DNA of 64,000 nucleotides, taken from positions 62,001-126,000 of the forward strand of contig CAINNJ010000008.1 in the NCBI GenBank assembly GCA_903851195.1. Direction: 5' to 3'. Positions 50,907-64,000 of this stretch are shown in pieces. The notes beneath the pieces were generated by a model. The model was given only the letters and a program-made list of their open reading frames with translations, was not told where the DNA came from and did no database searches. This DNA comes from an uncultured Acidobacteriia bacterium (GTDB lineage: Bacteria; Acidobacteriota; Terriglobia; Bryobacterales; Bryobacteraceae). Numbering within the stretch: the stretch's first letter is position 1; the number at the start of each line of letters is the position of its first letter. The position numbers and the translations under genes were made by a program.

Positions 50907-53900
50907 TCAGAGAGTCATGACGAGCGTCAGATCGCTGCCTGGATTGGTGGTGCCGACGCCGGTCACGTCGAGACTCAGTTCGTCACCGGCATGCAGGGGC
51001 GGCAGTCCGAAACCGCTGACGCTGCCGGATATGGTGGCGCCGGGATCGAACTGGATGGTCGCGTAGGGAGCGCTGTTGAGATTCAATTGAAGCGTGACGC
51101 CGGCTCCGGCCGAGGGCGTTCTGAGCACGCCGTAGATCGCGCCGACGGCCCGGTCGGCGTCGACAATTACGTTCGGCGCGGCGCCGGTCTGAATCGCGAG
51201 ATAGCCGGTGATCTGGAACGAAAACTGGCCGCCGCCGAGGGTGCGCAGACCGGAATCGTTCGTGTGCGTAAACTGCTGAAACGCGGCAGGGCCGTTGCCG
51301 ATCGCGTTCGTCATGTAAGCTTCCGCCGAAGCGACGCGCACGCCGGGCAATTCCAGACTGCCTTTCCAGTCGCCGCTGGAAGGGGAGCCGAAAAAATTCC
51401 GGATAAACGGGAAAATTGCGATCTTTTCCTTCAGGACGTACACGGCGGCGCCGGGGCTGTGGTCGGCGGCGGTGGTGGCGTGGCGTCCGCGCTGCACGAT
51501 CGTGTTCCCGGCCGCGTCTCTGCCCTGGGTGAGCAGAACTTCGCGGTCGATCTGGACATAGGTACCGGAATCCAGCGCTGCGGCAGGCAGCGGAACGGCG
51601 AGATCGGCGGCGGCAATTGCGGCGGTGGTGGCGAGCGGAGAGTCGCCGTGGATTTCATCGTAATAGTGAATCCGGAAGGTGCCTGCGACCACGCTGCGGG
51701 TATTGGTAACGTCCGTGAAGGAAACGCCGAAATCGAGCACCCCGCCCCGTGAAGACGAGACGCCGGCGGCAAAGACGGGTGCAGGCGGCACATCGTGATC
51801 CGCCAGAAGCGCGCCGGACTGCCCGATGGTCCAGCGGGTCAGCGGAGAGAGTTCGTAAGCGGCTTCGATATTGCCGGCATTGGCCGCCCGTGCGGAAAGA
51901 TGGATCGTTGCCCCCAGCCGCTCCGGGACGGTGACGGGCAGCGGACTCGCGGGGCCGGATGCGGCGGGGCGCCACGCATTTTCGCAGACCACAAACCGCG
52001 TGGTGGCGTCGGGAGCCGGAACCCACGGATCGTTCACCGTGATGACGTTTCCGTCGTTCCCTGCGATGGTTCGCTCTTGTCCGGCTCCGGCGCCGCTGGT
52101 GAGCCGCACCGTAGCGCCGGCGTACTGGTTCGCCTGCAGGCTGAGAATCGAATTGCCGACGCTGTTGGCCGAATGGGTCGTTGCCGCCGTTTCCGGCAGC
52201 CATTCCCAGCGCCAGTAGAGGTTCACGTGATCGAATTGCGGATCGGGCGGCAGCAGGGCTGTGTACAGCAGACCAGTGTCCGTAAACGTAGCCGCCGGCG
52301 ACTGACCAGAGGCGATGCGAAGTAACTTGCGCGCATCCGTTCCGCGATACACGTGAAAAGCCTGGGCGCCGGAAGGAAGGCCGATGCCCAGCAGCGTCAC
52401 GGTATTGCTATCGGCGCCCGGCGGTACGGCGGCCTGCACGACGAACGAGAGAGGACTTTCGCCGCCGTCCGTATCGATTGCGCTCACGGCGTAGAAAAAG
52501 TTCGTGCCGCCGGCAAGAGTTCCCCCTGGTGTTTGCACTGAGGCCACCAGCCCGACGAGCGGAGCCACCAGCGAGCCTCGCTGTCCGGCCTGCGTCGAAA
52601 ACGAAACATCCAGCTCCACGCTGGCGGAGCCGTCGCTGCCGGAAACTTCCGTTTCTTTGACGCCCAACTGCAGCGCGCCGTTCGCGTCGGCAATCACGCC
52701 TCCCACCGGCGCGGGCAGGCCCGGGCCCTGACCCGATTGCCAACCGCGACCGCCGAGGATTCCGGTCACCGTGTCCGGGTACCAGTCGTCGTTATGAATC
52801 TGCGCGGATATGACGGCGGTGCGGAAGCCGGATCCGGGCGCAATCTTCAGGATGCGAAAGGGCGTTCGCGCCAGGTTCTCTTTGAGATACGTGACGGTAA
52901 TCAGATCTCCGGGCATCAGGCCCAGCGCTTTCACGCTGGTTTCGAACTCGATGAACCGGTTGCCTTCCACGCCGCGGTTCAGGCCGAGCAGCAACATCCG
53001 GGTGGCCTGATGAAAGGTGGAAATGCCGGCGGCATCCGCGACCGCAGCCACCTCCTGACCGCAAAGATCGGCATCGTCTCCGTCGCTCAGCGAGAGGCTG
53101 TCCTGCTGGTACTGATTGAAGCTGTCCTGAAACTCCACCGACAAACGATTCGGCGTGTCCTGCGCGTTCTTCGACCACATCCGGACACTGGCGCTGCCGT
53201 CCGGATTGCGGGCGATGGAGCCGCTGTCGAACTCGTAAGCCGGCCATCCCCCGTTGAACGGATTCGCCGCGTTACTGCCTGCGGGTTTCACGGGCTGCTG
53301 CAGCGCGAACGTATTCTCGACGCGCGCTTCCAGCTTTCCGGCCGTATTCAGCACCAGGTAGACGCGCGAAGCGTTCCTTATCGCGCGGACCACCTCCCCC
53401 GAACTGCGCCGCTGCTTCAGCGCCATATTGCACTGGAAGCGCGGGATTTGGACCGAGCCACCAACCGGATCCTGGGCGCTGATGAGTTCGCCGACATAAG
53501 CGGCGGCTCGCGCGAAACTGGGCGTATCGAGTTCATCGAGCGCGAACCCGCTGCGCCGCAGGATGTCGAGAAGAACCCACGCGGGATTGTCCGATAGCTG
53601 TTCGCCCAGCGAATTCCCCGCGGCATCGAACTGTTCCAGCCGCAGCCCCTGCATCAGAATCTGCACCGAAGGCAGCGACGTGCCATCGTTGATCCGGTTC
53701 GGCACCACCACCGATAAACACGCCATGCTGCCGTAGGGATCGCCCAGCGCCACGCCATGACCGTCCGTGAAATTCGGATCCTGCATGCCCACCCGCGTGC
53801 CGGGCGTAATGACATTGAACCAGCCCGTGGCTGTCATGTTCATGCCGGAAATGCCAAGCGGAATCTCGATGTTATTGACCAGAACCTTGAGAATTCCCTG

Positions 53901-54806
53901 GATCTCGCCCATTCCCAGCAGGACTTCCATGCGGGTAAGATTGCCGTCGTTACGGGAAAAGACGACATCCGGAGCGTGCCACTGCGTGCCATAGACCAGC
54001 GGCACGAAATCGTTGTAGCGGGCCTGATTGTCCTGCACGGCGGAAAGCGCGTAGTTCTTCTGACCGGACCCGCGGACAAGAATGGTCGGCGGCACATACT
54101 CCACGCCTCCGAAACGGGCTGTGGCGCGGCCGGCGTTGTCGTGCGTGAACATGCCGCGCTGTTCGCAGTCGGACCGCGTGCGCGTGCAATCCGTGAAGGG
54201 AACCACGCCGTTCAGGTTCCCGGCGCCGCCAACCTGATCCGGCGAGTATCCGCACCGGTAAAACGGCGAATACTTGCCGCGCGAAGCCCCGTTCACGGCC
54301 TCCTGCCGCTGCGCCGCGGTCAGGGGGAAACGCCACGGACACAGCCGCTGGATCCGCACTTCCGGCACCACGCTGCGCTGCGTCGCCATGCGGTTCATGG
54401 CGCTCAGGCGAAAGCTGTTTTCGGTGATCTGATCCGGCGGATTCATCAGGCCGCTGAAGACCACCAGGGAGTCCGTCGTAGACGCGCCCGACGGCAGACT
54501 CACGAACACCGCGCGGACCTGCAGGCGCGCCCCTTTGAACCCGGTCTGCTGTTCGATCTCCGACAAGGCGGAATCGGCGTTGGCGAGCTCAAAGCTCAGC
54601 CGGGGCGCGCCGCCCACCTGCGTCTCCGACGCCATCTGGGCTTCGAACAGACTGTGACGCAGCACGCGCCCTTCATACTCTGTGCCGCCCAGCAGAATAC
54701 TTCGGCTGCTCCAGTGCCGCACCGTGCCGTTCGCCAGAGTGCAGTCGAACAGCAGCAAGGGTGTGTCCGCGTTGAGATTTTCTTTGGCTGCGTACAGGGT
54801 CTGCAT
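50907..54806 (-). CDS. Phage tail tip/hub protein, gpL-like N-terminus with long C-terminal region
   Basis: 1299 residues. Residues 1-230 resemble the lambda gpL/DUF2163 hub: an N-terminal beta domain, then four Cys at 156, 185, 207 and 214 (CPWRF, YRCGYS, TDCTRTRSDC). Cys207-Cys214 and Cys185-Cys207 spacings are close to those of the gpL Fe-S cluster. A central baseplate-hub region runs to about 700. Next come fibronectin/Ig-like segments (LVGLVASVQTPGGTLAGGTN, FYAVSAIDTDGGESPLSFVV) and a C-terminal beta-rich host-contact region. It probably combines hub and central fibre roles split in other phages. Confidence 0.75.
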   Translation of the reverse strand: MQTLYAAKENLNADTPLLLFDCTLANGTVRHWSSRSILLGGTEYEGRVLRHSLFEAQMASETQVGGAPRLSFELANADSALSEIEQQTGFKGARLQVRAVFVSLPSGASTTDSLVVFSGLMNPPDQITENSFRLSAMNRMATQRSVVPEVRIQRLCPWRFPLTAAQRQEAVNGASRGKYSPFYRCGYSPDQVGGAGNLNGVVPFTDCTRTRSDCEQRGMFTHDNAGRATARFGGVEYVPPTILVRGSGQKNYALSAVQDNQARYNDFVPLVYGTQWHAPDVVFSRNDGNLTRMEVLLGMGEIQGILKVLVNNIEIPLGISGMNMTATGWFNVITPGTRVGMQDPNFTDGHGVALGDPYGSMACLSVVVPNRINDGTSLPSVQILMQGLRLEQFDAAGNSLGEQLSDNPAWVLLDILRRSGFALDELDTPSFARAAAYVGELISAQDPVGGSVQIPRFQCNMALKQRRSSGEVVRAIRNASRVYLVLNTAGKLEARVENTFALQQPVKPAGSNAANPFNGGWPAYEFDSGSIARNPDGSASVRMWSKNAQDTPNRLSVEFQDSFNQYQQDSLSLSDGDDADLCGQEVAAVADAAGISTFHQATRMLLLGLNRGVEGNRFIEFETSVKALGLMPGDLITVTYLKENLARTPFRILKIAPGSGFRTAVISAQIHNDDWYPDTVTGILGGRGWQSGQGPGLPAPVGGVIADANGALQLGVKETEVSGSDGSASVELDVSFSTQAGQRGSLVAPLVGLVASVQTPGGTLAGGTNFFYAVSAIDTDGGESPLSFVVQAAVPPGADSNTVTLLGIGLPSGAQAFHVYRGTDARKLLRIASGQSPAATFTDTGLLYTALLPPDPQFDHVNLYWRWEWLPETAATTHSANSVGNSILSLQANQYAGATVRLTSGAGAGQERTIAGNDGNVITVNDPWVPAPDATTRFVVCENAWRPAASGPASPLPVTVPERLGATIHLSARAANAGNIEAAYELSPLTRWTIGQSGALLADHDVPPAPVFAAGVSSSRGGVLDFGVSFTDVTNTRSVVAGTFRIHYYDEIHGDSPLATTAAIAAADLAVPLPAAALDSGTYVQIDREVLLTQGRDAAGNTIVQRGRHATTAADHSPGAAVYVLKEKIAIFPFIRNFFGSPSSGDWKGSLELPGVRVASAEAYMTNAIGNGPAAFQQFTHTNDSGLRTLGGGQFSFQITGYLAIQTGAAPNVIVDADRAVGAIYGVLRTPSAGAGVTLQLNLNSAPYATIQFDPGATISGSVSGFGLPPLHAGDELSLDVTGVGTTNPGSDLTLVMTL

Positions 54807-54815
54807 GGTTTCCTC

Positions 54816-55592
54816 TTAAACGCGCGACAGCAGGATGAGTTCGCAGGCCGAAAGGCCCGGTCCCGTGCTTTTCACGCTGAGTTCGTCGGCGCCGAAGTAC
54901 GTCTCCGGATAGATCCGGCTGGCGCCCGTGGTGCGGCGGTACTGCGACGGATAAGGCTGCGCTTCAAGCTGCAGACCCCAGACATCGACAATCGCGCCGG
55001 CGGGAACAGAGAGCGAGACAGTCGTTTGCTCCGCCCCCGCGTTACCCGTCGCGCTGACAAACAGCCGCTTCCACGCGGGTTCCGCCGTTTTAACCGACGC
55101 GCTTCCGTCCCGCTGCAGGCTGACCTCGGTTGGAGTCGCGGAGCGGATCCACGCGCTGCAGCAGGTCACGTAATCGCCGGGAATATTGACCGTCTGACTG
55201 ATCGCCTGCAAACCCGCGCTCGGATTCGAAAGCGTGGAAGCCCGGGCCGTGCCCAACGGATCCGTGGCGCCATGCGTAATGGACAAGAGCCCCGCCTGCC
55301 AGTCCGCATGGGAGAGATCTTCACTCCAGGTGAGCAGGTTCGCAATGGGATCCGCGAAGCCAAACGCGCGGGCACTGCCCTGACAGGCAGCAAACAGATC
55401 GTGCAGCTTCGCGACTTCCGCATCGCTCAGATCCCGGTATGACAACCGCCACTCGATCTGTCCCGCCGCGTGATCCGGCAGCGAGACCTGCTCGCCGTTC
55501 TCCAGCACGTTTGTAATCGCTCGCCATGTGCGGCGGCGGTGCAGCGGCAGCTGGGCCAGAGACCCCGCGCCCGTCTGAGGAAACCACGTCAT
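54816..55592 (-). CDS. Phage tail protein: distal-tail-like domain plus carbohydrate-binding-like domain
   Basis: 258 residues. Residues 1-95 (WFPQTGAGSLAQLPLHRRRT, QIEWRLSYRDLSDAEVAKLH, ARAFGFADPIANLL) look paralogous to the next gene upstream. The remainder (NLLTWSEDLSHADWQAGLLS, CCSAWIRSATPTEVSLQRDG, VDVWGLQLEAQPYPSQYRRT) is the jelly-roll, CBM-like domain common on phage tails and capsids, likely binding cell-surface glycans. The ATG at 55592 overlaps the upstream stop (ATGA). Confidence 0.72.
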   Translation of the reverse strand: MTWFPQTGAGSLAQLPLHRRRTWRAITNVLENGEQVSLPDHAAGQIEWRLSYRDLSDAEVAKLHDLFAACQGSARAFGFADPIANLLTWSEDLSHADWQAGLLSITHGATDPLGTARASTLSNPSAGLQAISQTVNIPGDYVTCCSAWIRSATPTEVSLQRDGSASVKTAEPAWKRLFVSATGNAGAEQTTVSLSVPAGAIVDVWGLQLEAQPYPSQYRRTTGASRIYPETYFGADELSVKSTGPGLSACELILLSRV

Positions 55593-55939
55593 AAAATCTC
55601 CTGAATGATCAGGCGGGCCTGCCCTGTCATCTCGTTTTGCAAAGAAGCCTCGAAAGTGTCGCCGGCCAGAATGCACTTGGCGATGCTGTCGCCGGTGACC
55701 GGGTCGGTAAACGAAAAGAACGCGCTTTCCACCTGCTCGACGAACTCGATCACCGCGCCGAGTTCCACGTCGTCCAGCAGGTCGAGCGACACCACCCAGC
55801 GGCGCAGAGCGGCGCCCTGCAGAGGAAAGCGCTGGCTGCTCCCGTCGAGAAACTGCACGGTCTGCGTCCGGAAGCCGGCGGCGCGGTCCAGCGGATATTG
55901 CGCGACCGCGCCGGTCCTGAGTGTTGGAAAGGCCGGCAT
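55589..55939 (-). CDS. Phage distal tail-like protein
   Basis: A 116-residue protein in the position of the distal tail component, between tape measure and hub. FPTLRTGAVAQYPLDRAAGF, RWVVSLDLLDDVELGAVIEF and AFFSFTDPVTGDSIAKC resemble the DUF2460/T5 pb9-like minor tail fold. It is paralogous in layout to the N-terminal half of the next gene. Its start touches the tape-measure stop at one base, and its stop overlaps the next ATG by 4 nt. Confidence 0.68.
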   Translation of the reverse strand: MPAFPTLRTGAVAQYPLDRAAGFRTQTVQFLDGSSQRFPLQGAALRRWVVSLDLLDDVELGAVIEFVEQVESAFFSFTDPVTGDSIAKCILAGDTFEASLQNEMTGQARLIIQEIL

Positions 55940-56565
55940 CAGAGATCCGCCACCACGCCGTTAATCGGATGATTATTGAGCATGGCTTCGCGCACGGCGT
56001 TGGCGATGTCGCTGCTCCGGTCCATAAAGGATTGGCTGTCCATCGCGCTCACATGAACGGTGATCTGAGGGGCATACGTAGACCCGCCTTTCGCCGGCTG
56101 CGATCCGGCCGCGTCGGGGGCGCCCTGCGGGCTCGCCGGGGAGTTGGCATGCAGCGTTCCGCCAATCGAGACCGAAGGCGGCGGCGTATAAAGAGGCAAC
56201 GTCGCCGGCGCCGAAGAACCGCCGCCACCAAACAGCGAAGCAATTCCCGACACGAGCGGCGAAAGAAAGCCCAGTGCGCCGCCAAACAGGCTCGACGCAA
56301 CATGGCCCGCCGTGCCCGCGGCGGAGTGACTGCCCTGCACGGAAGTATTGCCCTGAACCGCCTGCGTGTTCGCGGCAATCAGATCCGCCTGTTGCTGCAA
56401 ACCGGCGCGTCATTGCGCAATTCCAACGCCCGCCTGCGACAAGGACGTCGCCAGGTCGCCGTTCCCGCCGGACACGCCGGCGCTGATAGTGCCCGGACCG
56501 GGAATTCCCCGTCGCCTCGAAGGCGCGATCGTCCGGAAAACTTCTTCAATCGTTCGTTGTGGCAT
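55939..56565 (-). CDS. Short tape-measure-like tail gene interrupted by an in-frame TGA
   Basis: The ATG at 56565 opens MPQRTIEEVFRTIAPSRRRG and reads 51 codons to TGA at 56410-56412. The same frame then stays open for another 156 codons to 55939 (AGLQQQADLIAANTQAVQGN, hydrophobic VASSLFGGALGFLSPLVSGI, then HVSAMDSQSFMDRSSDIANA). The two parts read as one protein of about 208 residues with the central hydrophobic helix of tape measures. There is no good new start after the TGA. CGA to TGA is a single transition, so this is a nonsense mutation, a read-through site (TGA followed by C) or a sequence error. Confidence 0.68.
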
Positions 56566-56899
56566 CTCGTTGCTCCCGCTCCATTTGCTCCTGCAGAATC
56601 AGAAACGCGTCCACCTTGCGCGCCTCCGTCTCTGCGTCTTCCCGCATCCCCATCCGCCGCCTCACCAGGAACTCCTCCAGGAGCGCCATGCTGGTTCCGG
56701 ATATCAGAGATTTCGGGCATTGTTCCGCGCTCACCTGCCTGCGCCCCCAGACCACGTGCGGTTCCGCGCGCAGTTCGGGTGCGATAAAGTCACAGCGCCG
56801 GCGGCGTTCCAGACCGTGTTTCCTGCAGTTCTCGCAATCCCACCCGGTCCGGCCTGCAAACTGCTCGTTTGCCAACTGGAAATGGAACGCGAGGATTAG
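56546..56899 (-). CDS. GT-type extension of the tail assembly chaperone (-1 frame)
   Basis: This frame has no convincing start of its own near the upstream stop; a GTG around 56927 lacks a Shine-Dalgarno. A -1 shift at the heptamer 56905-56899 joins it to the upstream gene as ...KN-LILAFHFQLANEQF..., giving a fused protein of about 238 residues. The extension has four Cys (DCENC, RRRCDF, EQCPKS) and a charged helical C-terminus (FLILQEQMEREQRDATTND). In lambda the GT fusion loads the tape measure onto the tail tip. Its stop overlaps the tape-measure start by 20 nt. Confidence 0.72.
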   Translation of the reverse strand, partial: LILAFHFQLANEQFAGRTGWDCENCRKHGLERRRRCDFIAPELRAEPHVVWGRRQVSAEQCPKSLISGTSMALLEEFLVRRRMGMREDAETEARKVDAFLILQEQMEREQRDATTND

Positions 56900-57261
56900 T
56901 TTTTTCTTTCGTCCTCGTTGAGCCCGCACTCGGCGCGGACCGCGTCGAGCGCTTCCCGGAACAGTGCCTCCGGGCCCCGCTCGGTCAATGACAGCGGCGT
57001 GGCCGGAGCCCCGTCGAGTTCCAGGCCGCGAATTTCTTCGAGCCCCCATTCGAGATAGAGGCGGTCCATCTCGCCGCCCAGCAGACTCGCCTCCATGTGG
57101 TTCCGCGCGTCACATCCGGCTTCGAAGAACTCCGCCCGGGTTGCCAGTTCGCGAACCCGTTTCATCAGCTCCAGCCGCCGCCCGAAACTCATCCGGGCGA
57201 TCACGAATTCCACTCCCGGGCAGACGAGCGACGGCACAAACGTGCGGCCCTGCCAGTTCAT
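56896..57261 (-). CDS. Tail assembly chaperone, G-like
   Basis: 121 residues from ATG 57261 (MNWQGRTFVPSLVCPGVEFV). It lies directly after the tail tube and before the tape measure, the fixed position of gpG-type chaperones. Its last codons are AGA AAA AAC TAA, which contain the slippery heptamer A_AAA_AAC in the correct phase. Most ribosomes would stop here and a minority would continue into the -1 frame. Confidence 0.75.
   Translation of the reverse strand: MNWQGRTFVPSLVCPGVEFVIARMSFGRRLELMKRVRELATRAEFFEAGCDARNHMEASLLGGEMDRLYLEWGLEEIRGLELDGAPATPLSLTERGPEALFREALDAVRAECGLNEDERKN
56899..56905 (-). other. Programmed -1 frameshift site A_AAA_AAC
   Basis: A canonical X_XXY_YYZ heptamer in frame, abutting the TAA stop. 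This is the configuration conserved in dsDNA phage tail chaperone genes. A 6-bp hairpin (GCAAAC/GTTTGC, 56872-56856) lies 26 nt downstream, rather far for a classical stimulator. Confidence 0.8.
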
Positions 57262-57266
57262 GTGCG

Positions 57267-58436
57267 TCACCCGAATGCGACGACGATTTCGTCGTCCGTG
57301 GTGCCCTGCGCCCGGTTGTCCCGGAAACGCCACTGCAGACGCTTTTCCGCGTCGTTGAACTCCGGCACCTCAGGAACCAGACTCCGGACATAAATGCCCA
57401 TCAGCTGTCCCGCGGTCTGGCCCAACTGGAACATGACGCTGACCGGATCCTGCTGGCGCGCGGCCTGATAAAGCGCCGTCGCCGCCTGATCGTCCTGGCT
57501 GAACAGTTCGAGCGACATCAGCACCTCCCTGTTGCCGGGCGTGATGCCCCGGGGCAGCTCAGACCCGAACTCCCGGTTCCGCATTTCCAGCCCGTTGCGA
57601 AGTTCAATGGATGCCTGCGACACCGTGAAGAACTGGTTCGGAATAACGCCGAGCCACGCCTGACCCAGATTTCCAGGCACCGGCGAGTAGCCCGCTCCGG
57701 ACGCGGCCGGCTCAGCCGGAAAGGCCGTCATGGAGCCCTGGCCGGTGTTGAAGGAAGCGCTATCCACGATGTCCTGCGCCATGCCGCGGAACTCGAACTC
57801 ATGGAAATCGCCGTTGAGCTTCACGGTCATGCGATCTACCGCCGCGCCGCAAAGAATGCGCTGCACGGCTGACGAGGGGTCCCAGTAATCGAACAGGCTG
57901 ATACTCGGCAATTCCGAAGCCAGACCATAAGTCGCGGCGGCGCCAATGGCCACGCCCACAACCGGAGCAGCCGAAAACGGCACATTCAGGATCACGGTCG
58001 AGAGATCCGGGACCGCCGCCACAAAACGAATTTCGCCGCCGGAAACGATGGCCTGTCCTGGATTGAGGCCATGCGGCGCGGCGAAATGGATGTTACTCGT
58101 GGTCGTTCCCATGGCCGGCGTCCCCCCTGCCCACAACGTGCCGGAACCGCCGAGTGCCGCTTCAAAGAGAGGACCGTGCGGCGGTAACTTTGAGGAATCC
58201 GCCCAGTCCCGCATGTATGACGAAAGCTGGAAAGTGGTCTGCCGCCGCATTCCCGCAGGCAGGCCGGCCCACGTCCGGCTGCCGGTTTTGTCTTTGCGTT
58301 CACTCTTCTCGCGCTGGTGGCGGGCGGTCATGCTGACCGCCGGAATTCTGTGATCCGCCGTGATGGAGGGAATGTTTCCATAAGCGGCTTCCGCGGCGCA
58401 ATACCAGCGGTTTGCATTCGATGAAATATAGGCCAT
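57267..58436 (-). CDS. Phage major tail tube-like protein
   Basis: 389 residues, in the tube position upstream of the G/GT chaperone. Beta-rich sequence (SISLFDYWDPSSAVQRILCG, VDRMTVKLNGDFHEFEFRGM) fits a tail-tube or sheath-less tail subunit with an inserted domain (HFAAPHGLNPGQAIVSGGEI). The C-terminal PVSVMFQLGQTAGQLMGIYV strand is typical of tube proteins. Larger than most tubes. The function rests mainly on gene order. Confidence 0.65.
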   Translation of the reverse strand: MAYISSNANRWYCAAEAAYGNIPSITADHRIPAVSMTARHQREKSERKDKTGSRTWAGLPAGMRRQTTFQLSSYMRDWADSSKLPPHGPLFEAALGGSGTLWAGGTPAMGTTTSNIHFAAPHGLNPGQAIVSGGEIRFVAAVPDLSTVILNVPFSAAPVVGVAIGAAATYGLASELPSISLFDYWDPSSAVQRILCGAAVDRMTVKLNGDFHEFEFRGMAQDIVDSASFNTGQGSMTAFPAEPAASGAGYSPVPGNLGQAWLGVIPNQFFTVSQASIELRNGLEMRNREFGSELPRGITPGNREVLMSLELFSQDDQAATALYQAARQQDPVSVMFQLGQTAGQLMGIYVRSLVPEVPEFNDAEKRLQWRFRDNRAQGTTDDEIVVAFG

Positions 58437-58481
58437 CGTCTTCTTCTTTCTCCCGGATTCTCCGTGCCGCTCGCCCTCCGG

Positions 58482-58976
58482 CTAACGGCTGATTTCCACG
58501 TCAAAACCCACCTTCGCGCGCTGCAGAAAATTTTTGCCGCCGCGCGTAATGGGCTCGTAAGTCACGTCATAACCGCCCGCATAAAAAGTCCCGCCGCCCC
58601 AGTCGCCGCGCGAGTCGTCCAGGAGGGCGCAGACGGCATCGACATAGACCTGGGTATTGGAATCGAGCGCATCGATCCGGTCCGCCGAGTGCCTGACCTC
58701 GATAACCAGATGGGCGCGGCCCGAAAACCGCCTGAACTTCTCCTTCAGCGAGTTGCTCAGTTTGTCGCAGTAAATCAGCAGCCCGGGGTAGTGCGCATGG
58801 CCGCTTTTCTCAATCACGTCGGCGCCGGCATGCAGAACCGCAATCGAGCGGATCCCCAGCGCGGTCACCGTGCTGTCGGAATGGGTGATCGCCCCGATCC
58901 GCGCATTCACGCCATCGGCGGGCGCCCGCAGCTTGTCCAGGGCAACGCCGGTCAGCGTGCCGGTAATTCCAGCCAT
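58482..58976 (-). CDS. Phage tail completion/terminator-like protein
   Basis: A 164-residue protein between the connector and the tail tube, the usual place of the tail terminator. Sequence features: LVIEVRHSADRIDALDSNTQ and VYVDAVCALLDDSRGDWGGG, resembling minor tail completion folds. No motif is diagnostic. The ATG at 58976 is the only good start. Confidence 0.55.
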   Translation of the reverse strand: MAGITGTLTGVALDKLRAPADGVNARIGAITHSDSTVTALGIRSIAVLHAGADVIEKSGHAHYPGLLIYCDKLSNSLKEKFRRFSGRAHLVIEVRHSADRIDALDSNTQVYVDAVCALLDDSRGDWGGGTFYAGGYDVTYEPITRGGKNFLQRAKVGFDVEISR

Positions 58977-59015
58977 TCGGTTTCCTTTCTTCTTCGCGCC
59001 GTCAGCCCCGCGCCG

Positions 59016-59780
59016 TCAGCCGCGGAGGATAGTCCGGACCAGCGGCCGCACAAAATCGGGCGCCTGGCCCGTGCCCGGAAGCCGGCCCTGCGTCACCGAG
59101 CCCGGAATGTAAGTGAAGCTAAGACCCGCCGGCAGCGCGACGCTGGTCTGCAGAGCCATCGCATCCAGGTTAGTTCCGGCATAGACCTGGAAGCCCGCCA
59201 CACCGGCCGGCGCGTCTCCCGCCGAAACCGACATCAGATTGCTGTCGGCGACGGTGATGGAGGACGCCGGCGAGGCCGCGCCTTCCTGTCCCCGGTCGTT
59301 CACCCACGCGATGCTGGCGTAGAAAGTGCCACCTTTTTGCGGGCCCGGCACGCTGGTCAGCATCGGCGGGGCCGCTTTTCTCACCGGGTTATTGACCAGC
59401 CCCATGCCGCATGCCACAAACCTGTCGTAAGCTCGCCGGGTAAGTTGCGAGTACTCTTCCCACTTCGCCTGATAGCGATCCGCTAACTGGCTGAAATACG
59501 CGTCGCGATAAACCAGCGACAGCGCCATCATGGATTCCCAGCGTTTCAGCTCCGGAGTGACAACAACCTGTTCGATGCGCAGTGAAGGAGCCCAGACCAG
59601 ATCCAGCGAAGGCCTCGGCCGGTCCAGCCACAGACCGAGTTCGCTCGCGATCTCCTCGTGCGCCAGCCGGATTTTTGTCGTGGCGTTGATCCCGCACGTC
59701 GCCGCGACGTCCGGCAACCCGGAATCCTCGTCCGTCAGATCGGCAACCGTGCTCGCCGGTCCATCCGCGAAGAGTGCCAT
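59016..59780 (-). CDS. Phage head-tail connector-like protein
   Basis: 254 residues. The N-terminal helical half (VADLTDEDSGLPDVAATCGI, KIRLAHEEIASELGLWLDR) resembles adaptor or connector proteins. The C-terminal half (FYASIAWVNDRGQEGAASPA, GVAGFQVYAGTNLDAMALQT) is a fibronectin-III-like domain, an unusual addition that also occurs in the hub of this module. The assignment is by position and helical content. Confidence 0.55.
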   Translation of the reverse strand: MALFADGPASTVADLTDEDSGLPDVAATCGINATTKIRLAHEEIASELGLWLDRPRPSLDLVWAPSLRIEQVVVTPELKRWESMMALSLVYRDAYFSQLADRYQAKWEEYSQLTRRAYDRFVACGMGLVNNPVRKAAPPMLTSVPGPQKGGTFYASIAWVNDRGQEGAASPASSITVADSNLMSVSAGDAPAGVAGFQVYAGTNLDAMALQTSVALPAGLSFTYIPGSVTQGRLPGTGQAPDFVRPLVRTILRG

Positions 59781-59782
59781 GG

Positions 59783-60094
59783 TCAGCTCCGCTCTTTCGG
59801 CGAGCGCACTTCGTGGGACGGAATCACCATCACCTGCACGCGACGCGCTGCTTCTTCCTGCTTGTGCCGCTCCAGCGCTTCCCGGTTGGCCGCGTGAAAC
59901 GCCGCGGTTTCTTCCTGCGTGGCCACTCGGGATTTGCCTTCCGCAATCAGCTTCGCCGCAACCCGGCGCGGCACTTCTGTCCGGACGTCGTTCTTCCCGC
60001 CTTCCGGAGTGGCCAGACTGACCACCACCACATACTCGCCGGTGAGTTGTTCCTCGGCGTCCCGAACGCTTTTGTAATAAGACCGTAAGTCCAT
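59783..60094 (-). CDS. Small phage structural-module protein (hypothetical)
   Basis: 103 residues (DLRSYYKSVRDAEEQLTGEY, a middle with ATPEGGKNDVRTEVPRRVAA, and a charged helix LERHKQEEAARRVQV). It starts 2 nt before the connector-like gene and follows the long non-coding gap behind the coat gene. I do not recognise it. It may be a head-completion or decoration accessory. Confidence 0.55.
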   Translation of the reverse strand: MDLRSYYKSVRDAEEQLTGEYVVVVSLATPEGGKNDVRTEVPRRVAAKLIAEGKSRVATQEETAAFHAANREALERHKQEEAARRVQVMVIPSHEVRSPKERS

Positions 60095-60132
60095 GTCGTC
60101 CTCTTCCTGTGTGAATCGTCCTGATAAAACGG

Positions 60133-60179
60133 ACGGGCAGCCCGCCGAGTGTGTGAATCGAGCGGTCTGCCCGTTTTTT
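60133..60179. terminator. Hairpin with T-runs on both sides, after the coat gene
   Basis: Outer stem ACGGGCAG/CTGCCCGT (60133-60140 with 60167-60174) and an inner CCGC/GCGG. Six T follow on the plus strand, and TTTTAT on the minus strand. It may reduce minus-strand transcription from the coat gene into the connector genes. Confidence 0.6.
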
Positions 60180-60214
60180 CGACTAGTTCCTCAACCGTGT
60201 AATCGGGTGCGAAT

Positions 60215-60303
60215 GTGGGGCAGATTGTGAATCTGCGCGCCGGTTGGTTAACCGGCGCTGTTGGCGGGTTTCCAACCCGCCGCAGGATGACATCCTGCCC
60301 CAC
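60215..60303. repeat. 89-bp four-hairpin palindromic element (REP/cloverleaf-like)
   Basis: The ends GTGGGG (60215) and CCCCAC (60303) pair and enclose four consecutive hairpins. A: GCAGATT/AATCTGC (60220-60236). B: GCGCCGGTT/AACCGGCGC (60237-60258). C: GGCGGGTT/AACCCGCC (60263-60281). D: GCAGGAT/ATCCTGC (60282-60298). Loops are 3-4 nt. Every base apart from four between B and C is in a stem or loop. The layout resembles dispersed intergenic palindromic elements of soil bacteria. It is non-coding and lies within a phage operon. Confidence 0.85.
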
Positions 60304-60334
60304 GTCGAGAGAACACCCTTACCCGGTCAAAGAA

Positions 60335-61246
60335 CTAGCTGTTCACCTGCACGGCGAAGTTATTCCGCAGCACGGCGCAGCCGTAGAGCACGTCCACCGT
60401 GAACTGCTGAGACAGCGTGTTCGGCTGGTAGCTCATGGTGACGCGCATGCCGAAGTTGCCCAGTTCGGCGTATTCGGCAATCGCGCCGGTGCCCGGCAGA
60501 GGCTGCGGAAGACGGCGAATCACCAGGCCGATGGCGTCCTTGCAGAACGCCAGATTGTGCGTGCTGACCGGCGCGCTGCCGGTCTTCGGCACATACTGCG
60601 AACGGAACACGAAGAAGTCTTTGATCTTCCCGATGGTTCCGTCCACAACCGCCCGCAGACCCGCGTCGCCGGCCGTCTGGAACTCGCTGAAACGCGGGAT
60701 CTGCCGCAGCTGCGAGTACGTGTTGCTGTCCACCACCAGGAACTTTTTCTCGCTGGCCGGAACCTTCGCCTGGAACAGCGAAGTCTCCGCCTGATCGAGC
60801 ACCGCTTCGGTAAGCGGCGTCCCCGCGGTGCCCAGCGGCGTGTTGGCCGAGAATCCCGCGTACAGGTTCAACAGGTCGCTTTCGATCTTCTCGGCGATCG
60901 CGACCACGGCGGGCTGCATGTAGACGCGCAGCAGATCCGGCACCGCCAGAACCTTGGTGACGTCCGGAATCAGGAACGTGGCTTCCGCGTGCGTGTTGAG
61001 CACGATCTGCGCATTCCCGAGGCTCGGATTCTGCGGCTGCACCGAACCGCCTTCCGCGATGTTGTTCGCGACCAGCTGCGGCGCGATCGGCACATTGACG
61101 GTATCGCCCGCCTGCGCCAGAGTCGGCTCGTAGTCGCGATTGACAAGGTTCCCCATCACGAGGTTCCCCACCAGAGCGGGCAGCGCATCCGCCGCCACCA
61201 GTTTCACGATCGCATTCGCAATATTTGCTGAGGTAATAGCCGGCAT
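60335..61246 (-). CDS. Phage major capsid protein, P22 coat-like
   Basis: 303 residues from ATG 61246. NRDYEPTLAQAGDTVNVPIA, HAEATFLIPDVTKVLAVPDL, VVDSNTYSQLRQIPRFSEFQ and FGMRVTMSYQPNTLSQQFTV fit the P22 gp5-like coat family with an HK97 fold. It is shorter than P22 gp5. It follows a scaffold gene, consistent with scaffold-dependent assembly rather than a protease-processed HK97 head. Hairpins lie on both sides of the gene, which may set its mRNA level. Confidence 0.82.
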   Translation of the reverse strand: MPAITSANIANAIVKLVAADALPALVGNLVMGNLVNRDYEPTLAQAGDTVNVPIAPQLVANNIAEGGSVQPQNPSLGNAQIVLNTHAEATFLIPDVTKVLAVPDLLRVYMQPAVVAIAEKIESDLLNLYAGFSANTPLGTAGTPLTEAVLDQAETSLFQAKVPASEKKFLVVDSNTYSQLRQIPRFSEFQTAGDAGLRAVVDGTIGKIKDFFVFRSQYVPKTGSAPVSTHNLAFCKDAIGLVIRRLPQPLPGTGAIAEYAELGNFGMRVTMSYQPNTLSQQFTVDVLYGCAVLRNNFAVQVNS

Positions 61247-61273
61247 TTTCTTCCTTTTCGTTTTTCTGACCGC

Positions 61274-61302
61274 AAAGAAAATGGGGACCGTTCCCGGTCC
61301 CC
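61274..61302 (-). terminator. Hairpin between scaffold and coat genes
   Basis: Perfect 8-bp stem GGGGACCG/CGGTCCCC (61283-61290 with 61295-61302) and a 4-nt loop, followed on the minus strand by ATTTTCTTT. It sits 28 nt before the coat ATG, in the 161-nt gap. It is either a leaky terminator or a 5' stabiliser of processed coat mRNA. Confidence 0.6.
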
Positions 61303-61407
61303 GCCTCTCTTCGCAATCCACCCTTTGCGGTACTGCTGCTGCCGCCCGCGGGCGCGCATTCCATCGCGCCCCGGCGGCTCCGCTTTGTTGCTGAACTTCT
61401 GACTGAG

Positions 61408-61959
61408 TTACCGAAGCGACTGGGAGGCGACGCGCAGAATTTCCTGCCGCACGCGTTCCAGTTCTTCCTTACTCATCGACGGGCTGATCTTATCCAGATC
61501 GATGGCGCCATAACCTGCGGCCGGCGCTGTTTTCTGCGTGCCCGTCATCCCCGTTCCTCCCGCGATTCTCGCCGGAAGGAACTCCGGATTCTCCTGGACG
61601 AAACCAGCCAGGTACTCGGACACCGGCTGTTCGCCGTTGTCGCCTTTCGCCACCAGCCGGCCGTCCTCGGTTCTGACGATTCCGTCCTGCACCGCCTTGA
61701 AGGCCAGGTCGACTTTCATCACCCCCAGCTTCTGCAGTTCGGCCCGAATGGTGGAGGTCCGCTGCGCCTCTTCGGCCAGCGCGTGGCTCCGCTTGTTTTC
61801 CTCGACAAGCTCATTCATCCGCTTCTCGAGCTGCTCGCGGCGCCGGCGCTCCTCCTGCAGTTCCGCCTTGTAAGCAGGCTCCCTCTTCGCGCTGTCCTTG
61901 CGCATGTATTCGTCGATCGCCTGCTGCACGATCGTCTGTACTTCTGTCGGCTCGTCCAT
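61408..61959 (-). CDS. Phage scaffolding protein-like
   Basis: 183 residues, strongly charged and helical. A coiled coil spans about residues 20-75 (DEYMRKDSAKREPAYKAELQ, RRREQLEKRMNELVEENKRS), then FVQENPEFLPARI and a C-terminal helix rich in Arg and Glu (SMSKEELERVRQEILRVASQ). Position between portal and coat and composition fit an internal scaffold. The start is ATG 61959, 13 nt after the portal stop. Confidence 0.78.
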   Translation of the reverse strand: MDEPTEVQTIVQQAIDEYMRKDSAKREPAYKAELQEERRRREQLEKRMNELVEENKRSHALAEEAQRTSTIRAELQKLGVMKVDLAFKAVQDGIVRTEDGRLVAKGDNGEQPVSEYLAGFVQENPEFLPARIAGGTGMTGTQKTAPAAGYGAIDLDKISPSMSKEELERVRQEILRVASQSLR

Positions 61960-61972
61960 AATTCCTTTCCCC

Positions 61973-63355
61973 CTATGGTTTGGTATTCGCTTCGATCTCT
62001 TCCGCGATCCGGTTCTTGATGTCCTGTCTCGCATCGCACAGGTACTTCAGCGCCACGCGTTTGAAGACCTGTTTCTTCAGCGTCGGGGAGTCAATCCCCA
62101 GATTCAGCAGATTCTGCGCGTCCTTTGCCTCCGAGCTGAAGTCCGCGATATCGAATTCGTCCAGGCCGGAAGCGTCGATCTGCAGATCGTCCAGCCTCGC
62201 CGCCGCGACTGCAGTCAGCACGTTCCGCATGGAATCTTTCATGGTGTCCCCATAGGCCCGGAGGATTTCCTGCGTAACACTGAAATCCCACTGTTTGCTC
62301 AGACCCGATTGCGCTGATCCGGAAGCATCCCCGGCCTGCTGCAACAGGTACGACACCCGATAGATCTCGTCTTTCAGCCGCGACAGATTTTCCGCCGCGA
62401 TCTGGTAAACCTTGCCTTCCGGCTCGGACCAGCCAAAATTATCCTGCGGACCGAGTTGCACGTAGTAACTCTCGCCCACGATCTGGCTCCATTCCCGGTC
62501 CGAATAAACCACCGGAGTAGCGAACAGCCCCATCGTCAATGCCCACCCAAGCGCATTGGCCTTATTGAAATGCTCCAGCTGCAGCAGCGCGGCTTTGTTC
62601 GTCAGCCAAAGACCTTCGCTGACCCGAACCTCAAAAACCGGAACGCGTCCGATGCCCGCGAACCCGTGTCGACCCTGATCGATCAGCTCGACCTTGTTCC
62701 CGGCGTTCGCGTCCTGCTGTTCGTAGATCTCATACTGTTCGCGATCGTAATAAATCCAGCGGGTCTTTTTCGTCCAGCCGAACGACCGCACGCTGTCCTG
62801 CTTCAGACAGGAGGTGCGAATCACCACCCAGTCGAACGCGCCGTTCTCGTTCAGGCTCCAGTTGATGACTTCGTCGGCCGTGTAGCTCATCAGATACGCC
62901 CGGCTTCGGCCCACAGCATCCTCTTCCGCTCTCGACAAAACAGGCTTGTCGGTTTTCGGAAAATCCACCACCACATAAGACTTCCCGCAAACCAATGCTT
63001 CGGTAATCTGATCCCTGAAGAACTGCGTCAGCGTCGTGCCGCGCAGGTCGCAGTTCTGCACGAACTGGCTGAAGAAACTCTTCGCCGGTTCACTTGCGCC
63101 CGTAAACTCCAGCACCGGCTCCTTCCGAACCAGCGTCGCCGTATACCAGTCGACAATCGACCCGATATAGTTCTCGTAAAAGACCCGCGTGAGCCGTTCG
63201 TGGTAGACTTCCATCGGCTCTTTATGCCGCCGCACCAGATACTCGGCCGCGTGCTGCCGGAACTGCTCTCCGCCCGCATACAGATCCCTGTAGCGGCGCC
63301 ACATCCCCGACTTCGCCGAGTAATCCGGATGTTCCTGTTCTATGTGTGAATTCAC
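61973..63355 (-). CDS. Phage portal protein
   Basis: 460 residues. Typical portal stretches are RVFYENYIGSIVDWYTATLV, ALVCGKSYVVVDFPKTDKPV, TKKTRWIYYDREQYEIYEQQ, and the clip/stem region QLEHFNKANALGWALTMGLF with a helical C-terminus. It resembles the DUF4055-type portals found with P22-like coats. It forms the dodecameric DNA channel and docks the terminase encoded just upstream. Confidence 0.85.
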   Translation of the reverse strand: MNSHIEQEHPDYSAKSGMWRRYRDLYAGGEQFRQHAAEYLVRRHKEPMEVYHERLTRVFYENYIGSIVDWYTATLVRKEPVLEFTGASEPAKSFFSQFVQNCDLRGTTLTQFFRDQITEALVCGKSYVVVDFPKTDKPVLSRAEEDAVGRSRAYLMSYTADEVINWSLNENGAFDWVVIRTSCLKQDSVRSFGWTKKTRWIYYDREQYEIYEQQDANAGNKVELIDQGRHGFAGIGRVPVFEVRVSEGLWLTNKAALLQLEHFNKANALGWALTMGLFATPVVYSDREWSQIVGESYYVQLGPQDNFGWSEPEGKVYQIAAENLSRLKDEIYRVSYLLQQAGDASGSAQSGLSKQWDFSVTQEILRAYGDTMKDSMRNVLTAVAAARLDDLQIDASGLDEFDIADFSSEAKDAQNLLNLGIDSPTLKKQVFKRVALKYLCDARQDIKNRIAEEIEANTKP

Positions 63356-63385
63356 TTATCTACCCTGAAATTGATCTCTCACTTC

Positions 63386-64000
63386 TCAAATCAACCGCAT
63401 TCCCCGCTCGCCGATCGTGTTCGTGGTGCTTTCCTGCCAGATCAGATATCCAAGAGCGTCCGACAGATGAGTCCTTCTTCGGTCCTTATCCTTATCAACC
63501 TGCACCGAATCTTCCTTGTAAGACACCTGCTCGAAATCCGCGATCAGTTCTTTGCATTTCGGATCCACCAGCAGCCTGACGTCCCCATACGCGTTCCGCA
63601 ACCGCGCATTCATCGCCGCTACGCGCTCGCGGACCGGTGGATTCGCCTTCGGCACGCGATACGTCACCTTCGCGCTGCGCGAACCGAAGAAATTCCGGAT
63701 CACCTGATAATCGGAAAACCCGGTCGTCTGCATCGCCGACCCGGCCGCGTCCCCGAAGACCACGATGCCGGAACGCGGAATGCCGAAGCGCCTTTCGAAC
63801 TCCTCGCACGCCTGCTCCGTCGACGCCCGGTGCAGCACAATCTCATCCAGCACCCGGATCTCGTCGTCCTTCATCTGCACCACCATGGAAGACATCGGGT
63901 CCACGTTGAAATCCACCGCCCAGCAGATCGCTCTGCCGGGGTCCGCGCCTATTCGCTTCACGTTCGTCTCCCGCGAAAAGGCCGTGTAAACCAGACCGCC
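63386..64000 (-). CDS. Phage terminase large subunit, nuclease domain (5' part outside window)
   Basis: The frame stays open to the right edge, reading GGLVYTAFSRETNV before the GTG at 63961, so the ATPase half lies outside. The visible RNase H-like nuclease domain has ICWAVDFNVDPMSSMVVQMK (first Asp), EIVLHRASTEQACEEFERRF, VVFGDAAGSAM (second Asp) and THLSDALGYLIW (third Asp). It cuts and packages DNA through the portal. Confidence 0.88.
   Translation of the reverse strand, partial: GGLVYTAFSRETNVKRIGADPGRAICWAVDFNVDPMSSMVVQMKDDEIRVLDEIVLHRASTEQACEEFERRFGIPRSGIVVFGDAAGSAMQTTGFSDYQVIRNFFGSRSAKVTYRVPKANPPVRERVAAMNARLRNAYGDVRLLVDPKCKELIADFEQVSYKEDSVQVDKDKDRRRTHLSDALGYLIWQESTTNTIGERGMRLI

Follow-up and report, generated by a model that had tools for sequence, protein, structure and literature searches.

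A conserved structural gene block of Bryobacterales, probably an ancient domesticated tailed particle resembling gene transfer agents

Introduction

The gene transfer agent (GTA) of Rhodobacter capsulatus, RcGTA (Rhodogtaviriformidae), is encoded by a cluster of about 14 kb that includes a DUF2460-type distal protein; BaGTA and CcGTA are also host-owned particle gene clusters. According to passages of PMC7296036, the RcGTA tape measure consists of a 113-residue helix, 83 residues of strands and loops and a 20-residue helix, and the RcGTA hub has four cysteines and an iron-sulfur cluster, in agreement with what a first-pass annotation of the DNA studied here had stated about a short tape measure and an Fe-S hub. 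GTAs have been defined by six features (PMC9662315): particle proteins derived from Caudoviricetes, a fully endogenized genome, mostly vertical inheritance with co-diversification of element and host, particles filled mainly with random host DNA, a head too small to take up the element's own genome in full, and delivery of the packaged DNA to other cells. Here, we analyzed a 64,000-nucleotide stretch of an uncultured Acidobacteriia bacterium ("the window"; G000:C8:62001-126000, in a 7.72-Mb genome), whose right-hand end carries a compact block of head, packaging and tail genes. We conclude, at a probability of roughly three in four, that this block encodes the structural proteins of a tailed, DNA-packaging particle that was domesticated long ago, is vertically inherited in Bryobacterales, resembles GTAs and arose independently of them.

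The element itself has been reported before. A Bryobacterales-specific provirus group, group (i), was described in 2025 as newly reported (PMC11924767), and UViG_2522125054_000002 of KBS 96, a named member of that group, carries the coat-to-hub part of our block (L106, on the KBS 96 scaffold); going by the passages that name the group, the group (i) proviruses are the same element. Paludibaculum fermentans and Ca. Solibacter usitatus are also named in that paper. Those passages frame the group as proviruses and do not raise domestication, vertical descent or GTAs. Prophages were also counted in KBS 96 and Ellin6076 in the relevant passages of PMC5900883, and the element has been filed repeatedly as viral in IMG/VR. 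Here, the element is read as a domesticated, vertically descending particle; a literature search, with most subscription papers outside its coverage, returned no reported GTA in the phylum Acidobacteriota.

Results

Conservation, co-descent and selection

The block spans 13.97 kb, from window position 50907 to window-equivalent position 64878, with every gene on the (-) strand, in the order small open reading frame (ORF), large terminase (TerL), portal, scaffold, P22-type coat, three connector-position genes, tube-position protein, tail chaperone G and its G-T extension, tape measure, two DUF2460-like proteins and a hub/gpJ fusion. This order and content, terminase to hub, had been proposed in the first-pass annotation and were borne out by Pfam, PHROG and NF matches. 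The module had been put at 13 kb; its compactness stood, while reading on past the window moved its closing point outward, with the terminase ending at contig position 126666 (window-equivalent 64666) and the small ORF at contig position 126878. TerL-to-hub synteny was found in 37 of 39 loci (the window's own and 38 fetched loci with the block), over spans of 12.9-17.2 kb; L044 ends at a contig edge before TerL, and L300 and L301, both losses, are not among the 38. In all 80 named loci, many of which are partial, the genes present also keep this order.

A coat match was found in 201 of 257 Bryobacterales genomes (125 of the 163 good ones, 73 of 84 genera), mostly once per genome. Assigning families from genome order, with handles incompletely listed, places the coat in 198 of 237 genomes of the window's own family and in 3 of 20 from other families. 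TerL was matched in 195 of 257 genomes, a few of these matches being weak or to another TerL type, and 12 further genomes have TerL at E < 1e-100 without a coat match, which brings the genomes with coat or TerL to at least 213 of 257. The one-contig genomes G143 and G144 have a single copy each. In a phylum sample of 396 genomes, which also includes order members (at least G000, G189 and G191, the last without a coat match), the three coat matches were the own genome, G189 of the same family and G370, the single match outside the order and a weak one (E 6.6e-4). Titles of records with the block include Bryobacterales, Bryobacteraceae, Ca. Solibacter, Ca. Sulfopaludibacter, Terriglobia and Acidobacteria (222 loci confirmed, of which 80 were kept). 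The locus sets overlap: several of L063-L142 duplicate contigs of G-handle loci, and within L146-L293 seven viral contigs are represented twice. The block's coat was also found, at 82% identity, in L086, a record under the title Nevskia soli that is probably a mislabelled bin.

Descent was compared in 29 genomes by an RpoB tree and a tree of concatenated TerL, portal, coat, tube and hub (G161, without an rpoB match, was left out). At bootstrap of at least 95, the module tree recovered each of the 11 host clades, and the host tree each of the 15 module clades; at support of at least 80, 15/17 host clades and 16/17 module clades were common to both. The trees share 17 of 26 splits, against a mean of 0.3 and a maximum of 3 in 2000 label permutations, and host and module distances correlate at 0.55 (shuffle maximum 0.36). 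Inheritance is mostly vertical, with co-diversification of module and host. The first-pass annotation had named absence of the module from all sister strains as something that would speak against its reading; the module is instead widespread among them, in the same synteny and with a host-congruent tree.

Ratios of nonsynonymous to synonymous substitution (dN/dS), rough values because synonymous sites are near saturation in many comparisons, were 0.025 for the coat, 0.06 for TerL, 0.08 for the portal and 0.10 for both tube and hub against L063, the closest relative used (dS 0.7-2.1; beyond estimate in some other pairs). The distal proteins evolve faster (0.17 and 0.25 against L063). Over six relatives, the coat ranged from 0.025 to 0.11 and TerL from 0.06 to 0.20, connector and tape-measure genes reached about 0.34, and the T frame of the chaperone reached 0.47, with out-of-frame sequence included in its values. 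The best matches of 13 block proteins with trimmed starts in the 38 other loci hold no stop, the tape measure being represented there only by its part after a TGA codon (see below) and the T frame not being counted. Selection on the block, as read from these ratios, is purifying, and the comparison of dN/dS and synteny in relatives that the first-pass annotation had suggested thereby yielded purifying selection and a fixed gene order. Taken together, the conserved head-packaging-tail set, its unvarying gene order, the purifying selection, the retained frameshift site and the shared descent of module and host argue for a domesticated particle.

Genes of the block

Several gene starts lie further in than the longest frame, that of the scaffold having been set from homologues. 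The features are as follows, from the upstream end of the block.

L002:14143-14379, equivalent to window 64642-64878 (outside the window), (-) strand: small conserved ORF, its stop overlapping the terL start
63386..64000 in the window, whole gene to equivalent 64666, (-) strand: TerL, 426 aa; Pfam Terminase_6C 8.5e-9, Terminase_6N 2.4e-6
61973..63355, (-) strand: portal protein; phrog_145, E 7.4e-57; 38/38 other loci
61408..61959 (longest frame to 62034), (-) strand: head scaffolding protein; phrog_206, E 1.7e-6; 38/38 other loci
60335..61246 (longest frame to 61321), (-) strand: major coat protein, P22 type, 303 aa; Pfam P22_CoatProtein, E 4.6e-15; phrog_283, E 4.9e-42
59783..60094, (-) strand: connector-position protein 1, role suggested by its place; 36/38 other loci; no firm family
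59016..59780, (-) strand: connector-position protein 2, with a weak head-closure match (phrog_8040, E 0.012); 38/38 other loci; no firm family
58482..58976, (-) strand: connector-position protein 3, in the tail terminator position by place and conservation only; 38/38 other loci; no firm family
57267..58436, (-) strand: tail protein in tube position, 389 aa; phrog_290, E 5.2e-10; 38/38 other loci
56896..57261, (-) strand: tail assembly chaperone G, role taken from place and frameshift, putative start; 36/38 other loci
56899..56905, (-) strand: -1 slippery heptamer A AAA AAC, a conserved site directly before the G stop codon
56546..56905, (-) strand: T extension of the putative G-T frameshift product, an open -1 frame
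55939..56565 (ATG 56565, stop 55939), (-) strand: tape measure frame, 208 codons, interrupted here; C-terminus phrog_3779, E 6.7e-6
55589..55939, (-) strand: distal-tail-type protein 1, DUF2460-like; PF09343, E 1.2e-4, below the Pfam cut-off
54816..55592 (longest frame to 55676), (-) strand: distal-tail-type protein 2, DUF2460-like with GTA_spike_fiber; PF09343, 1.6e-5, below cut-off; NF048003, 3.6e-17, above cut-off
50907..54806, (-) strand: baseplate hub fused to a gpJ-like central fibre, 1299 aa; phrog_31 (gpJ), E 1.3e-19; PF13550, E 8.8e-9

The Pfam, PHROG and hub-fold matches mark the particle proteins as derived from Caudoviricetes. The small ORF was found in 97 of 107 loci, directly before or overlapping the TerL start, with the consensus DLIRLLQLEKEL...KVRWV; it belongs to no known family and had no significant match in a PHROG scan, and its position suggests a small-terminase role. 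In TerL, what we take to be Walker A, the Walker B region and three candidate nuclease aspartates are invariant in 20/20 aligned sequences. The coat is 67-89% identical in all 38 other loci, and its AlphaFold model (pLDDT 35) gave no usable structure. The coat alignment was made without L139 (stop codon), L130, L137, L140 and L141, the hub alignment without L139. The "P22-like head" of the first-pass annotation thus holds for coat and scaffold, at profile level only. The tube label follows from place and size, PHROG naming phrog_290 a minor tail protein.

Tail chaperone frameshift and tape measure

In phage lambda, the tail chaperone is laid out as G and a G/GT frameshift product, and the arrangement in our block matches that layout. 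In 36/39 loci, an AAAAAAN heptamer either abuts the G stop or precedes it by one codon, and the -1 frame beyond it stays open over 107-132 codons (N = T in L296 and L299); two of the remaining three have AAAAAAC at the same place and a later G stop (by 24 and 47 codons), and one has AAAAAAG.

The tape measure had been estimated at about 208 residues. This length is right for the family, the frame being open for at least 175 codons in 57 of 58 named loci with a match (L066 alone is short) and its median longest form being 205 aa in 36 loci of another set; in the window itself, the frame is interrupted by an in-frame TGA at codon 52 (56412-56410), which reflects a recent mutation or else faulty assembly.

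Distal tail and hub

Four cysteines of the hub (156, 185, 207 and 214), pointed out in the first-pass annotation, are invariant in 39/39 loci. A model of hub residues 1-430 (pLDDT 75) matched the folds of the T5 hub (E 6e-14), lambda gpL (6e-8) and RcGTA 6tba (2e-4), with TM-scores by query length of only about 0.2-0.3, which places the likeness at the domain level; a hub sequence search against the PDB gave no match. A scan with GTA models took in ten block proteins, with TerL, portal and scaffold left out, and matched two GTA-named models: GTA_spike_fiber above its cut-off and GTA_megatron far below (12.7 bits against 800). GTA_spike_fiber was also matched at E <= 0.01 in 14/15 homologues of distal-tail-type protein 2.

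Genomic setting

The block is fully endogenized, lying within large contigs and adjoining cellular genes. On the left, the hub stop is 18 bases away from a cellular Wzt-type ABC transporter gene. On the right, 11 neighbouring genes were scanned: the first protein beyond the small ORF has sub-threshold family matches only, nine others belong to cellular families (TonB receptor, Fe-ADH, EamA, phosphorylase, GFO/IDH, ketoacyl synthase, TIG, ArgJ and chorismate synthase), and one has no match. The G+C content of the block is 0.622, compared with 0.607 and 0.618 in the flanks, and module and flank values track each other across 37 loci (r 0.90). An ABC transporter gene of this kind and/or an M24 peptidase gene is found on the hub side in 18/38 loci. 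Clustering of the upstream flanks of 71 loci revealed no gene common to more than eight, and an Rfam search of two short loci found nothing. On a metagenome contig (L260:681-2192), a gene for a TIR-domain protein adjoins the upstream end of the block.

A genus in which no cognate terminase was found

In genus g7, the coat was found in 8/8 genomes and the cognate TerL in none of the eight. The remaining block is in order in all five g7 loci examined (L299, L354, L355, L356 and L359, from genomes G045, G048, G047, G050 and G046), and the same ABC and M24 neighbours follow in four of them. Coat, portal, tube and hub are open, with no stops, in four loci compared with L299; where dS was measurable, dN/dS was 0.03-0.07 for the coat, 0.10-0.17 for the hub and up to 0.42 for a distal protein. 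As no cognate TerL was matched in g7, function in that genus may not need the packaging motor of the block.

These observations speak for an alternative in which the particle was domesticated for another use, such as killing competitors, carrying a protein or acting as a decoy, with DNA packaging secondary or lost. However, TerL is kept across most of the order, with motifs invariant in the 20 sequences aligned, and other terminase-like ATPase genes exist in the g7 genomes, so that a replacement terminase is possible there. We therefore consider this alternative unlikely, if worth keeping in view. A whole-genome search with Terminase_6C missed the window's own TerL and was not used to argue absence; a search with Terminase_6N matched it, with matches also elsewhere in the own genome.

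Among the other Terminase_6N matches, the two examined (L357:3250-4679 and L363:1312-2885) each consist of a terminase-like ATPase half and a nuclease-like half encoded as neighbouring ORFs, unlike the TerL of the block. As a variant of the block itself, G244, from another family, has four extra genes between tape measure and distal proteins (L294:6290-9812); one of these matches a right-handed beta-helix family at a score narrowly below the Pfam cut-off.

Mobility genes, viral records and plasmids

In print, the element has been read as a group of temperate phages or proviruses, widespread in Bryobacterales and still mobile between hosts. The KBS 96 member of group (i) (PMC11924767) carries the coat-to-hub block, and on a metagenome contig (L282, 1972-5359) two tyrosine recombinases and a DnaG-like primase lie between an AcrB gene and TerL. 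However, a profile for tyrosine recombinases, derived from integrases of the own genome and of L282 and matching its positive controls, found no such gene in 129 genome-derived loci, including 347 kb of upstream flank in 70 loci (L300, L301, L357 and L358, among the 129, are without the full block). The own genome has 15 integrase matches, none of them on the contig of the block, and its right flank is cellular wherever the family is known. No repressor, replication, lysis or control gene was recognized beside the block; repressors, replication, lysis and serine integrases had no dedicated search. The longest exact repeat between flanks of about 1 kb was 10 bp, within chance (mean 7.1 and maximum 15 in 50 shuffles).

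The first-pass annotation had seen no lysis or integration genes on the visible side and had named such genes, with att repeats, just beyond the window as what would speak against domestication. Reading on rightward bore out the former, lysis again being without a dedicated search, and turned up neither an integrase near the block nor repeats beyond chance. The nearest isolated phages among the matches listed from 50,697 records reach only about 29% identity in the coat and about 33% in TerL, and tube and hub had no match at E 1e-5 in those records. With the module tree following the host as well, we regard a still-moving provirus group as distinctly improbable. A mobile prophage was rejected on the host-congruent tree and the integrase and repeat tests, and a plasmid-borne element because only two weak partial matches were found among 72,556 plasmid records.

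In IMG/VR, a coat relative is encoded by at least 594 among the 600 candidate stretches listed; identity is 76-91% in the 80 that were kept. Gene order agreed with the block in every one of the 148 viral loci examined, which come from 141 contigs. The full set of 14 queried genes was present in 53; the ABC neighbour occurred in two of the 148, and the M24 gene in none. An exact pattern taken from L061 matched no viral contig. Going by the genome data, most such contigs would be host fragments filed as viruses.

A decaying, functionless prophage remnant, for which the interrupted tape measure of the window, the short frame of L066, the loss of the module from some genomes and a mere 43-residue TerL match in G100 could be cited, was rejected as very improbable, given low dN/dS, genes open, without stops and colinear across the order, and a retained frameshift heptamer.

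Discussion

The first-pass annotation had left two possibilities, a domesticated particle and a miniature siphovirus with a scaffolded head; our data strongly favour the former. Three of the six features that define GTAs are found here, namely Caudoviricetes-derived particle proteins, an endogenized genome and mostly vertical inheritance, and with fair confidence we suggest that the element works like a GTA, without filing it formally as one.

Several observations weigh against a domesticated, DNA-packaging particle. The element is known here from its genes, and the particle, the packaged DNA and its transfer are inferred from them. Both a coat match and a TerL match at E < 1e-100 are missing from 44 of the 257 genomes. 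Draft-genome gaps account for some missing modules and real loss for others, and real loss in some genomes means that the module is dispensable; in G145, TerL reaches the contig end and the rest of the block was not found. The missing cognate TerL of genus g7 also belongs here, as does the stop in the window's tape measure, by which this copy may be damaged, unless the assembly is wrong. One clade pair conflicts between host and module trees at support of at least 80, and the near saturation of synonymous sites loosens the selection estimates. L282 carries mobility genes and L096 a primase-like fragment, and neither a lysis gene nor a dedicated regulator was identified, lysis and repressors having had no dedicated search.

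If the block does encode a domesticated DNA-packaging particle, scaffold and P22-type coat would, on induction, build a small head, which the terminase would fill with whatever DNA it met, mostly host chromosome. A short tail would be assembled on the tape measure of about 208 aa and then joined to the head. Lysis of the cell would depend on genes outside the block, and delivery of the DNA to kin on the hub and fibre proteins. The conserved TerL motifs only allow packaging of random host DNA, and ComEC, present in the genome, fits uptake of DNA from particles without proving it. A wider proposal, namely that an independent GTA persists through the whole of Bryobacterales, moving random host DNA among kin, and that one genus maintains a selected particle without its own packaging motor, strikes us as an even bet.

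Should host DNA be packaged, the element would be a gene-exchange machine of common soil bacteria and a new, independent phage domestication, in which a P22-type head replaces the RcGTA head. Given how often the block is filed in IMG/VR, virus counts and "provirus" rates for soil Acidobacteriota may include host genes. With the order-wide alignment and the genus in which no cognate terminase was found, it could readily be tested which genes of the particle are important and for what reason.

Comparison with known systems

Among tailed phages, P22-type phages resemble the block in coat and scaffold profiles, and lambda- and T5-type phages in the fold of the hub, which is like those of T5 and lambda gpL. 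The block differs from both in its mosaic of head and tail types and in having no recognized replication, integration, control or lysis genes, and its tape measure is far shorter than those of tailed phages.

With RcGTA, the block shares a compact structural cluster, vertical descent and a very short tape measure, as well as the four-Cys hub, the GTA_spike_fiber domain and a hub whose fold matches 6tba (E about 2e-4; TM-score, by query length, about 0.25). The "RcGTA-like tail" of the first-pass annotation is therefore upheld in layout, short tape measure, four-Cys hub and GTA_spike_fiber, but not as close sequence kinship. In contrast to RcGTA, the block has a P22-type coat and a scaffold gene within the cluster; its hub and gpJ-like part form a single gene of 1299 aa, with no tail peptidase recognized; its spike domain resides in a distal-tail-type protein, with GTA_megatron far below cut-off; and it belongs to a different phylum. 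Clear homology to the RcGTA gene set, by which Rhodogtaviriformidae are delimited, was not seen among the ten block proteins scanned, and the block, which by its genes would work like RcGTA, is not filed as a member of that family. BaGTA and CcGTA, set beside the block by their description and not by sequence, resemble it as host-owned clusters.

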